Part shown: positions 25,744 through 30,310 of the stretch, piece by piece
How the letters are laid out: the number at the start of each line of letters is the position of its first letter
How positions within the stretch are numbered: position 1 is the stretch's first letter
Assembly (NCBI GenBank): GCA_913776885.1
Contig: CAJYQC010000118.1
Coordinates: 1 to 54,922 of the forward strand
Reading direction: 5' to 3'
Source of the DNA: an uncultured Variovorax sp.
GTDB lineage: Bacteria > Pseudomonadota > Gammaproteobacteria > Burkholderiales > Burkholderiaceae_C
DNA: 54,922 nt
Notes under the pieces: model-generated
The model's input: the letters and a program-made list of their open reading frames with translations, nothing else
Database searches by the model: none
What the model was told of the DNA's origin: nothing
Program-made: the position numbers and the translations under genes

Positions 25744-27489
25744 ATGAAACACCTGAGCGGTCTTGATGCCACCTTCCTGCACCTGGAAACGCCGGAAATG
25801 CCGATGCACGTGGGTTCGCTCAACGTGCTCGACCTTCCGAAGGGCTACAAGGGCGACTTCTACGAGGACGCCAAGAAGTTCATGGCCAGCCGCATCCACC
25901 TGGCCGACGTGTTCACGCGCAAGCTCGCGCTGATGCCCTTCGACATGACCAACCCGGTGTGGGTCGAGGACGACGACATCGACCTCGACTACCACGTGCG
26001 CCACATCACGCTGCCCAAGCCCGGAACCAACCGGCAGTTGCAGCAGTACGTGGCGCGGCTGCATTCGTCGCTCATCGACCGCAGCCGCCCGATGTGGGAG
26101 TTCTACATCATCGACGGCCTCAAGAGCGGCCAGGTGGCGCTCTACACCAAGGTGCACCACGCGGGCATCGACGGGCAGGCCGGCGTGGAAGTGGGCAAGG
26201 CTATCTTCGACCTGGAGCCCGCCGGCCGCGTGGTGAAGCCGCCGCGCTCGCGCCCGCGCGGCAACAGCTACCAGCTGGGCATGGCCGAGCTCGCGACCGC
26301 CGCGCTGCGCAACACGGCGCAGCAGTACGTGAAGCTTTTCAAGATGGCGCCGGCCATCGCACGCGCCATCAGCGGCCTGGCCAGTCCCGACGAGAAGGCG
26401 GCCGAGAAGGACACCGCCGCCGCGCCGAAGAAGTTCAACCTCTTCGCGCCGCGCACCTCGCTCAACGTGTCGATCACCAACCAGCGCACCTTCGCCGGGC
26501 GCACCATCTCGCTGGCCGAGACCAAATACATCGCCAGGCACTTCGGCGTGTCGCTCAACGACGTGGTGCTGGCCACCGTGTCGGGCGCGCTGCGCCACTA
26601 CCTGGCCGACAACAACGAGCTGCCCGCCAAGCCGCTGGTGGCCGGCGTGCCGGTGAGCCTGCGCGAGGCGGGCGACGACACGGCGAACAACCAGGCCAGC
26701 ATGATCCTCGTGAGCCTGGCCAGCGACATCACCGACCCGGTCCAGCGGCTGAAGGCCATCAACGCCTCGTCGAACAGTTCCAAGTCGACCATGAACCGCT
26801 TCAAGGCGGTGATCCTCGACGACTTCCCGACCTTCGCCGCGCCCTGGCTGGTGTCGGGCATCGCGTCGATGGTGGGACGCTCCGGCATCGTCAACCTGCT
26901 GCCGCCGGCGGCCAACGTGGCCGTCTCCAACGTGGCGGGCGCGCCGTTCCCGATGTACTTCGCGGGTGCGCTGGTCACCTGCTACTACCCGGTGTCCATC
27001 GCCAGCCACGGCACGGCCCTCAACGTGACGGTGCAGAGCTACAACGGCCGCATGGACTACGGCCTCATCGCCTGCCGCCGCGCCGTGCCCGACATCACCG
27101 AGATCGGGGACTACATGCTGGCCGAGCACAGGCTGCTGATGGAACTGACGCAGAAGCACCCGGCCGCAGCCGGCGCCGCGCCCGCACCGGTGCCGCCGAA
27201 GACGGTGGCGGAGCCCTCGGACGACGAGGCCGAGGCCGGCCCCGTTGCCGCCGCAAGGAAGAAGCCGGCCGCCCGCAAGAAGGCGCCGGTCAAGGTCGCT
27301 GCGAAGAAGGCGCCAGTGAAGGCTGCCGCGAAGGTGGCTGCGAAGGCTCCCGTCAAGGCGCCCGCGCAGAAGGGCGCCAGGACGGCCGCCACGACGGCCG
27401 CCAAGAAGGCCGCGCCCAAGGCCCCGGCCCGCAAGGCCGCCCCTGCCAAGCGTTCTTCGGGCTCCGCGTCCAGGGCCGCCGCTGCCTGA
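25744..27489 (+). CDS. Wax ester synthase/diacylglycerol acyltransferase (WS/DGAT) family protein with Lys/Ala-rich histone H1-like C-terminal tail
   Basis: MKHLSGLDATFLHLETPEMPMHVGSL, active-site motif HHAGIDG, VAVSNVAGAPFPMYFAGA, then about 80-90 aa of A/K/P repeats (ARKKPAARKKAPVKVAAKKAPVKAAAKVAAKAPVKAPAQ...). Confidence 0.9.
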   Translation: MKHLSGLDATFLHLETPEMPMHVGSLNVLDLPKGYKGDFYEDAKKFMASRIHLADVFTRKLALMPFDMTNPVWVEDDDIDLDYHVRHITLPKPGTNRQLQQYVARLHSSLIDRSRPMWEFYIIDGLKSGQVALYTKVHHAGIDGQAGVEVGKAIFDLEPAGRVVKPPRSRPRGNSYQLGMAELATAALRNTAQQYVKLFKMAPAIARAISGLASPDEKAAEKDTAAAPKKFNLFAPRTSLNVSITNQRTFAGRTISLAETKYIARHFGVSLNDVVLATVSGALRHYLADNNELPAKPLVAGVPVSLREAGDDTANNQASMILVSLASDITDPVQRLKAINASSNSSKSTMNRFKAVILDDFPTFAAPWLVSGIASMVGRSGIVNLLPPAANVAVSNVAGAPFPMYFAGALVTCYYPVSIASHGTALNVTVQSYNGRMDYGLIACRRAVPDITEIGDYMLAEHRLLMELTQKHPAAAGAAPAPVPPKTVAEPSDDEAEAGPVAAARKKPAARKKAPVKVAAKKAPVKAAAKVAAKAPVKAPAQKGARTAATTAAKKAAPKAPARKAAPAKRSSGSASRAAAA

Positions 27490-27669
27490 GGGCCAGCAGC
27501 AGGGCCAGTAACAGGGCAAAACCCGCAAAGAAAATTGGGGCAGTTGGACTAGTTTTCCGACCGTTCTAGTTTTCCCGGCCTAGGCCCCCTGGAAGAAGAT
27601 AGGCCCATCGCGACTGATCCAGCTCCTGTTTCCTTCGCGAAGCCCATCAACTTCAAGGAAATCTCCATC

Positions 27670-28230
27670 ATGTCCACGCAGACCTCCATCGCCTCCGCAG
27701 CCGTCCACGTCGTCGGCCAGTACAACGACGCGGGCAAGACCCTGGTCGGCGCCTACCGCGCCGGTGTGCACCGCCTGCTGGGCGGCGCCGCTTCGCGCTA
27801 CAGCGACTTCCTCGGCAGCCGCCAGCTCCCGCTGGTGAGCGAGCAGGTCAAGGCCAACCTGATCGGCGCGCAGGAGAAGATCAACGGCTTCCTGGCCAGC
27901 CGCGTGGATATCGACACCGGCCGCATCGTCTCGGTGATGGACCGCGTCGCCGCCGGCACCACCAGCGGCATCGAAGCCGTCGCCGGCCGCGTGGCCCGCG
28001 TCGAATCGCCGGTCGCCACCTCGGTGATCAACGCCCTCGGCGCGCTGAACCAGCCGCTGGCCACCGTGTCGGTGCAGATCGCCGACCGCATCGCCGCCGG
28101 CACCAAGCAGATCGAAGCCCGTGTGAGCGGCGCCGAAGAAGAAGCCGCCAGGCCGGTGCGTACGGTGAAGGCCAAGGCTGCTGCCGCCAAGAAGCCGGTT
28201 CGCCGCGCTGCCGCCCGCAAGGCGGCCTGA
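27670..28230 (+). CDS. Phasin-like/granule-associated protein with Lys/Ala-rich C-terminus
   Basis: 186 aa Ala/Val-rich amphipathic helices, tail RTVKAKAAAAKKPVRRAAARKAA; genomic context. Confidence 0.55.
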   Translation: MSTQTSIASAAVHVVGQYNDAGKTLVGAYRAGVHRLLGGAASRYSDFLGSRQLPLVSEQVKANLIGAQEKINGFLASRVDIDTGRIVSVMDRVAAGTTSGIEAVAGRVARVESPVATSVINALGALNQPLATVSVQIADRIAAGTKQIEARVSGAEEEAARPVRTVKAKAAAAKKPVRRAAARKAA

Positions 28231-28236
28231 TCCCCG

Positions 28237-28265
28237 GGGCGCCGCAGGGCGCCCTTTCGTTTTTC
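28237..28265 (+). terminator. Intrinsic terminator
   Basis: GGGCGCC-GCAG-GGCGCCC followed by TTTCGTTTTTC. Confidence 0.8.
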
Positions 28266-28289
28266 TACCGGCCCCTGGAGTACCACCGA

Positions 28290-28772
28290 ATGGCGACCCG
28301 TCCTGACGAAAGCGCAAAGTCGAACAAGAAGGTGCAGAAGAGGGCGGCGCCTGCAACGAGGAAGGCTCCGGCAGCCGTGAAGAAGACCGCGGCCCGCAAG
28401 ACCGCGTCCAAGGCGCAGCACGGGTCCGGTGAACAGCCCGGCAAGGCCGAGGGCCTGCTGCGCGCCGGCCTTAAGGCGCTGGACAACGTGCGCAACGACG
28501 TCGCCAAGCGACAGGCCAACGTGATCGAGGGCCTGCTCGGCATCGGCCAGGGCAAGGTGCCGAGCCTGGGCCTCGACAGCTTCGGCATCCGCAAGTTCGA
28601 GGATGTGTTCGACCAGCGCGTCGCCACCGCCATGCAGCGCCTGGGCATGCCCGACGCCGCCGAGGTGCAGGCGCTGCGCGACGAAGTGGCGCAACTGCGC
28701 GAGCGCGTGGCGCAGCTCGAAGCCGGCACCGGTGCCGGCGCAGCCACGGCCCGCGGGCGCGGCAGGCGCTGA
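28290..28772 (+). CDS. Phasin-family-like (PhaF/PhaI-like) protein with Lys/Ala-rich N-terminus and C-terminal coiled coil
   Basis: N-terminal KKVQKRAAPATRKAPAAVKKTAARKTASKA; FGIRKFEDVFDQRVATAMQRLGMPDAAEVQALRDEVAQLRERVAQLE. Confidence 0.65.
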   Translation: MATRPDESAKSNKKVQKRAAPATRKAPAAVKKTAARKTASKAQHGSGEQPGKAEGLLRAGLKALDNVRNDVAKRQANVIEGLLGIGQGKVPSLGLDSFGIRKFEDVFDQRVATAMQRLGMPDAAEVQALRDEVAQLRERVAQLEAGTGAGAATARGRGRR

Positions 28773-28798: not shown

Positions 28799-29434
28799 GT
28801 GGCCAGCTCCAACACCACGCGCGACCGCATCCTGCAGGCCAGCCTCGCGCTGTTCAATGCGCAGGGCCTCGCGGCCGTGTCGACCCACAAGATCGCCGCC
28901 GAGCTGGACATCAGCCCGGGCAACCTGCATTACCACTTCAAGGCCAAGCAGCTCATCGTCGAATGGCTGTTCAGGCGCTTCGAGCAGCGTCTGGAGGCGC
29001 TGAACGGCTCGTCGGCCTCCATCGCGGCCATCGACGACCTCTGGCTGGCGCTGCACCTGCGCTTCGAGGCCATCGACGAGTACCGCTTCATCTACCGCGA
29101 CATGGCCTTCCTGGCCAGCGAGTACCCGGCCCTGGGCCAGCGCGCGCAGGCGCTCACCGCGCAGAACCTGCTGGCCGCGCAGACGCTGTGCGAGAGCCTC
29201 GTGGCCTCGGGCGTGATCGAGACCAGCGCCGAGCAGGCGCGCATCCTGGCGCTGCAGATGGTGTTCACCACCACCTGCTGGCTTTCCTTCGAGCGGCTGG
29301 TGCCGGGGCGCGAGGCGCTGGCGCAGGCCGATCCGGGCCTTGCGGCCTTCTACACGCTCACGCTCGTTTCGCCGTATGTTTCCGGCGAATCGAGGGCTTA
29401 CCTCGATTACCTGAGGGCCAAATACCTCGGATAA
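28799..29434 (+). CDS. TetR/AcrR family transcriptional regulator (GTG start)
   Basis: TRDRILQASLALFNAQGLAAVSTHKIAAELDISPGNLHYHFKAKQLIVEWLFRRF. Confidence 0.9.
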   Translation: MASSNTTRDRILQASLALFNAQGLAAVSTHKIAAELDISPGNLHYHFKAKQLIVEWLFRRFEQRLEALNGSSASIAAIDDLWLALHLRFEAIDEYRFIYRDMAFLASEYPALGQRAQALTAQNLLAAQTLCESLVASGVIETSAEQARILALQMVFTTTCWLSFERLVPGREALAQADPGLAAFYTLTLVSPYVSGESRAYLDYLRAKYLG

Positions 29435-29524: not shown

Positions 29525-30310
29525 ATGACCAGCGCTACCGCCACATACACCAAGAAAGACCTCACTCCGCCGTCGCGCATGCTGCTGCTGGCCGAGGGCC
29601 GTGCACTGTGGGAGACCGGGGCCGGCATCGCCATGTGGCCGCTGCTGCAGCTCACGCCCCGCGGCGACGGGCATCCGGTGCTGGTGCTGCCGGGCCTCGT
29701 CGCAGGCGACGGCTCCACGCTGCTGCTGCGCCGCTACCTGTGCAGCCGCGGCTATGACGCCCACGGCTGGGGCCAGGGGCGCAATTTCGGCCCGCGCGAA
29801 GGCGTCGAGCAGGGCATGGTCGAGCTGCTGAAGAGGCTGCACGACGAGAGCGGCCAGAAGGTCAGCGTCGTCGGCTGGAGCCTCGGGGGCGTGTATGCCC
29901 GCATGCTGGCTTCGTCGTACTCGCACATGATCCGCGACGTCATCACGCTGGGCAGCCCCTTCTCGGGCAGCCCGCGCGCCACCAACGCATGGCGCGTGTA
30001 CGAAGGCGTGAGCGGCCAGAGCTCGCACGACCCGCGCCGCATGAAGTTCGTGCAGCCCACGCCGCCCGTGCCCACCACCTCGATCTTCAGCCGCACCGAC
30101 GGCGTCGTCGCATGGCGATGCAGCCTCGAGAAGACCGGTCCGCAGTCGGAGAACATCGAAGTCATCGCCAGCCACCTCGGGCTGGGCGCGCACCCGGCGG
30201 TGCTCTATGCGGTGGCCGACCGGCTGGCGCAGCCGCAGGGGCAGTGGAAGCCGTTCAATCGCGGGGTGCTGGGGCCGTTGGTTTATCCGGATCCGGATCG
30301 GGGAGCTTGA
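29525..30310 (+). CDS. Alpha/beta hydrolase (lipase/esterase-like)
   Basis: GHPVLVLPGLVAGDGSTLLLRRYLCSRGYDAHGWGQGRNFGP, nucleophile elbow VVGWSLGGVYAR. Confidence 0.87.
   Translation: MTSATATYTKKDLTPPSRMLLLAEGRALWETGAGIAMWPLLQLTPRGDGHPVLVLPGLVAGDGSTLLLRRYLCSRGYDAHGWGQGRNFGPREGVEQGMVELLKRLHDESGQKVSVVGWSLGGVYARMLASSYSHMIRDVITLGSPFSGSPRATNAWRVYEGVSGQSSHDPRRMKFVQPTPPVPTTSIFSRTDGVVAWRCSLEKTGPQSENIEVIASHLGLGAHPAVLYAVADRLAQPQGQWKPFNRGVLGPLVYPDPDRGA

Follow-up and report, generated by a model that had tools for sequence, protein, structure and literature searches.

Where the tethering of bacterial storage granules to the nucleoid is known, it relies on granule-coat proteins or regulators that bear a histone-like tail. 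PhaF and PhaM are storage-granule proteins that bind DNA via histone-like basic segments (PMC5658603), and MLDS, found on lipid droplets, binds DNA through a Lys-rich C-terminus, a binding that is lost when Lys is changed to Glu (PMC5504291). The KPAA-type C-terminal domain of AlgP from Pseudomonas aeruginosa is needed for the spacing of polyphosphate granules (PMC9239181), while the Lys-rich tail of the mycobacterial HBHA binds phosphoinositides and is required for lipid inclusions (PMC6176652). Here, we analysed a 54,922-nucleotide stretch of DNA (the window) from an uncultured Variovorax sp. (contig C118 of a 5.48 Mb genome in 625 contigs, 89% complete). Three consecutive genes on its plus strand, coding for a wax ester synthase/diacylglycerol acyltransferase (WS/DGAT) and two further proteins named here P2 and P3 (581, 186 and 160 residues, respectively), each carry a basic Lys/Ala-rich segment. 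The original prediction had pointed out these segments, and both the open reading frames and the quoted peptides were indeed present.

The segments are basic and histone-like, as in PhaF from Pseudomonas and PhaM from Ralstonia eutropha, and PhaM itself is encoded in this genome. However, PhaF and PhaM are phasins or regulators of polyhydroxyalkanoate (PHA) granules, whereas the tailed protein described here is a neutral-lipid synthase. MLDS/TadA from Rhodococcus and HBHA have in common with this locus the neutral-lipid bodies and a Lys-rich C-terminus, which binds DNA in MLDS and phospholipid in HBHA, but they are small coat proteins of Actinobacteria. The KPAA-type domain of AlgP also resembles the tails found here; in that case the granules are made of polyphosphate and no lipid-storage enzyme is involved. 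No clade-wide basic tail on WS/DGAT or on the polyhydroxybutyrate (PHB) depolymerase PhaZ was described in the literature searched, a negative that does not prove that none exists. On granule coat proteins, histone-like tails are already known; their presence on a neutral-lipid synthase and on PhaZ appears to be new.

Judging from its sequence, the first gene is a genuine and complete WS/DGAT. The profile search gave a TIGR02946 match of 440.7 bits (cut-off 309.95) and Pfam matches to PF03007 (E 4.5e-69) and PF06974 (E 1.2e-26). The catalytic HHxxxDG motif reads HHAGIDG at residues 138-144, and H138, H139, D143 and G144 were invariant in an alignment of 12 homologues. The solved WS/DGATs (PDB 7nxg and 6chj, chains of 463 and 455 residues) share the catalytic domains and the motif with the Variovorax enzyme but lack its basic tail, their alignments ending at its residues 463 and 458. 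Because these homologues match only to residue ~463, the last 114-119 residues, with a net charge of +20, represent an addition. The AlphaFold model of the enzyme was of low confidence throughout (predicted local distance difference test score 46.5, shallow alignment) and showed no secondary structure beyond residue 471. When the tail was used as a query against its own genome, no significant match besides itself was obtained.

The tail was in frame and retained in 24 other Variovorax orthologues, with net charges from +16 to +23; the median identity to the enzyme of the window was 96% in the core and 71% in the tail. Separately, the tail of Variovorax sp. E3 (L017) appeared to be frameshifted into an Arg-rich end, either genuinely or through a sequencing error, and lysine was nearly gone from this out-of-frame version (1/52). 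We then placed 137 WS/DGATs, drawn from Burkholderiales and from further gammaproteobacteria, on a tree, for which FastTree support was the only support measure and in which, as for all relatives' loci, genus assignments rest on group codes. Basic tails were present in 76 out of 89 members of one clade (support 89), including 70 within its 83-member core (support 99). The remaining large groups presented them in 7 out of 32 and 2 out of 15 members, and the ends of the most divergent group were mostly neutral or acidic. The homologue search that the original prediction had proposed thus found the tail to be maintained across a large clade. Its statement that WS/DGATs normally end after the acyltransferase domain applies to many of these enzymes but not to the tailed clade.

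Tail charge was held across a range of 45-70% in guanine-plus-cytosine (GC) content while the sequence diverged. The densest lysine occurred in tails from loci of 45-46% GC (29 Lys in 74 residues in L118 and 19 in 55 in L114). Among 106 basic tails, K/(K+R) went down and Ala went up with rising GC, without a significant change in basic density. The kept charge, the diverging sequence and these GC trends therefore fit selection on charge and not GC drift. On this comparison, the WS/DGAT tail is not local to Variovorax; it is an old feature with a wide distribution and appears to be retained for its charge. An account of the tail entirely by GC drift or low complexity is likewise disfavoured by orthologue charge, clade distribution and the relation of lysine to GC.

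Similar segments were found on other storage proteins of the same genome. A TIGR01837 phasin carries a Lys/Ala-rich C-terminus, a TIGR01841 phasin a Lys/Ala-rich N-terminus, a PhaE/PhaR-like protein a basic end and PhaM (NF043076) a Lys/Ala-rich tail. At 0.17-0.25 Lys and 0.29-0.38 Ala per residue, the composition is like that of the tails of this PhaM and of the TIGR01837 phasin. The segments of the locus are rich in Lys, Ala and Pro with few acidic residues, which is the composition of PhaF-, PhaM- and MLDS-type tethers, so that the likeness to nucleoid-tethering segments drawn in the original prediction held. The basic segments of the storage proteins had little predicted structure. In addition, a PhaZ of this genome (TIGR01849, 567 bits; L099:5477-6883, contig C16) presented the Lys/Ala-rich C-terminus AAAKKAPAKKTATVAAKKRAAS. 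In a non-random sample of 31 PhaZ tails, made up of this one and those of the 30 best-scoring family loci (L311-L340), the net charge was at least +3 in 27 and at least +7 in 16. In the same genome, no such tail was present on either of two PhaC synthases or on a second PhaZ; the basic tail is therefore not on every storage enzyme.

In order to set these segments against a background, we applied a fixed threshold (40 residues with at least 8 Lys, at least 10 Ala, at least 9 Lys plus Arg and at most 2 Asp/Glu) to 808 genes, called approximately on a sample of ~1.04 Mb comprising contigs of this genome and of one other Variovorax. Only 6 out of 808 genes reached it. WS/DGAT (12 Lys) and P3 (9 Lys) passed a Lys/Ala-window test of this kind, which the shorter P2 segment (26 residues) failed. 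As a separate observation, a protein of the same genome that by eye is NYN-domain-like (L252:5883-6710, contig C25) is unrelated and bears an internal Lys/Ala-rich segment of the same composition.

By analogy with PhaF, PhaM, MLDS and AlgP, these tails may tie a subset of storage-granule enzymes and coat proteins to the nucleoid, a reading to which we assign a probability slightly under one half (about 0.48). Like those of PhaF, PhaM and MLDS, the basic segments would bind DNA without sequence specificity, and the neutral-lipid synthase would thereby work on or near the nucleoid. Nascent lipid bodies coated with P2 and P3 would remain spread along the chromosome and be shared at division, the WS/DGAT tail being the enzyme's own anchor, independent of the phasins. 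In favour of this reading are the tail charge retained despite sequence divergence, the likeness in composition to the PhaM and TIGR01837 phasin tails, the DNA binding of the analogues via such tails, the presence of the segment on PhaZ and the co-occurrence of P2 with WS/DGAT. Several points weigh against nucleoid tethering. Unrelated proteins among the sampled Variovorax genes also bear similar segments, and some members of the tailed clade (L049, L055, L048, L052 and L053) have short or weakly charged tails. Besides, basic tails also bind phospholipid, as HBHA does (PMC6176652), and WS/DGATs have been described as attached to the membrane via electrostatic interactions (PMC5407786).

The last two points are also the ones that favour the main alternative, which we regard as rather unlikely: the Lys/Arg tail would be an electrostatic anchor to anionic phospholipid at the inner membrane or the droplet monolayer, where the substrate lies, without any part for DNA. 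The requirement of the HBHA tail for lipid inclusions agrees with it. However, the same segment occurs on PHA-granule proteins (PhaM, phasins and PhaZ), and PHA granules have been reported to be without phospholipid (PMC4879537), so that phospholipid would make a poor common ligand. Moreover, many WS/DGATs manage without a tail, and the binding by HBHA depended on lysine methylation (PMC6176652). Less probable still, the tail would serve polyanion binding or solubility in a generic way (RNA, polyphosphate, acidic proteins or condensate formation), with no specific role in granule placement. Such tails suit several polyanions, AlgP has been proposed to interact with polyphosphate (PMC9239181) and similar segments exist on unrelated proteins, but they are rare in the sampled genes and yet recurrent on storage proteins. 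Finally, a GC-driven low-complexity extension without selection, although in line with the favouring of Ala, Pro and Arg by high GC, with the fast change in tail length and sequence and with the out-of-frame tail of L017, is very improbable, since lysine, whose codons are AA-rich, is enriched contrary to the GC trend and densest in the lowest-GC members, nearly disappears out of frame, the charge is confined to a narrow range among orthologues, and the most divergent WS/DGATs mostly have neutral or acidic ends.

The two smaller proteins differed in how far they could be classified. P3 matched PF05597 with 35.3 bits (Pfam cut-off 28.8) over 44 residues near its C-terminal end (model positions 82-125 of 126), and its TIGR01837 match of 35.9 bits was below the cut-off of 94.7. 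Neither P2 nor 13 of its homologues gave a significant Pfam or NCBIfam match, and P2 showed no PDB sequence match and no fold match (the best, at E 1.1, is meaningless). There was thus no support, by profile, PDB sequence or fold, for P2 belonging to a known phasin family. Its AlphaFold model consisted of three long helices of moderate confidence and a tail of low confidence, and this all-helical prediction is phasin-like in shape only. The layout, helices followed by a basic tail, is similar to that of MLDS/TadA and HBHA; no sequence relation was found here. Sequence therefore bears out the description of the three genes as lipid-inclusion-type for WS/DGAT alone, P3 resembling phasins over 44 residues and P2 falling into no described family. 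P2 belongs to a broad Burkholderiales family (L132-L161) for which neither Pfam nor NCBIfam has a model, and nearly all of the homologues inspected end in a basic segment. P2 homologues were present in 35 of 250 family genomes. A close WS/DGAT was found in 28 out of these 35 genomes versus 55 out of the 215 others (Fisher p 1e-9, uncorrected for relatedness), a co-occurrence that favours a role of P2 in neutral-lipid storage.

Comparison of gene order separated the enzyme from its neighbours (Table 1). Among the loci checked, P2 and P3 directly adjoined WS/DGAT only in Variovorax. In most cases of a tailed WS/DGAT, P2 and P3 were not adjacent, so the tail is independent of the two phasins. Outside Variovorax, P2, P3 and the TetR-type gene, mostly together with the hydrolase, formed a separate cassette away from WS/DGAT. 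In another genome (L233) WS/DGAT lay ~3 kb from the P2 cassette on the opposite strand. Of the five genes, the alpha/beta hydrolase was the commonest neighbour of WS/DGAT (Variovorax, Pseudomonas, Rhodoferax and several other genera). Because the P2-P3-TetR-hydrolase cassette can be separated from WS/DGAT, a single three-gene operon was rejected as the functional unit. Thus, of the proposal that the enzyme and two granule proteins act as a unit, what remained is that the presence of P2 tracks WS/DGAT; there is no functional triad. At least two genomes of Variovorax have a second WS/DGAT paralogue, 78-79% identical and with a short tail of 35-39 residues, that converges on the P2 cassette (L227:7852-9237, minus strand; also L013).

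Table 1. Features of the locus, with positions in the window.
Feature	Coordinates	Strand	Evidence
WS/DGAT with extra C-terminal tail	25744..27489	+	TIGR02946, PF03007, PF06974; HHxxxDG motif
Basic Lys/Ala/Pro-rich WS/DGAT tail, residues ~468-581 (densest ~504-565)	27145..27486	+	Beyond solved and profile domains; net +20
Pair of direct CTAGTTTTCC repeats preceding P2 (17 bp apart)	27549..27575, within 27543-27590	+	Conservation; uniqueness in genome
P2, helical and phasin-like, outside described families, with basic C-terminus	27670..28230	+	No family match; helix prediction; homologues in family genomes
Basic C-terminal segment of P2	28147..28227	+	Net +10 in 26 residues
P3, phasin-like, PF05597 over residues 101-144	28290..28772	+	PF05597 match
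Lys/Ala-rich N-terminal segment of P3	28317..28415	+	9 Lys in 40-residue window
TetR-type regulator, conserved member of P2 cassette	28799..29434	+	PF13972, PF00440; synteny
Alpha/beta hydrolase	29525..30310	+	PF12697, E 3.2e-6

The paired CTAGTTTTCC pattern was found once in the genome. Similar repeats were located upstream of P2 in eight Variovorax loci and, with variation, in eight loci of other genera (L231-L238). Since these repeats are conserved and unique in the genome, the cassette probably has its own promoter/operator, for which they are the candidate element; a sigma-70 promoter scan found no site. The same element could plausibly be an operator for the TetR-type protein, which would then control the P2-P3-hydrolase cassette. 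The gap separating P2 from P3 contains a GC-rich hairpin and, after it, a T-rich stretch (28236-28255), which together might be a partial terminator leading to more P2 than P3; terminator-like sites, including those of this type, were not clearly above chance here.

More tentatively, carbon-storage turnover in Burkholderiales and some gammaproteobacteria might take place on the chromosome, with WS/DGAT and PhaZ carrying their own histone H1-like DNA anchors apart from the phasin and PhaM tethers, and with P2 as the founder of an unnamed family of WS/DGAT-linked lipid-body coat proteins. If store-making and store-breaking enzymes bear the same tail, both the biogenesis and the breakdown of granules could sit directly on the nucleoid. 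This would predict that Proteobacteria have a machinery for lipid-body placement similar to the MLDS of Rhodococcus, as well as a new coat-protein family represented by P2.
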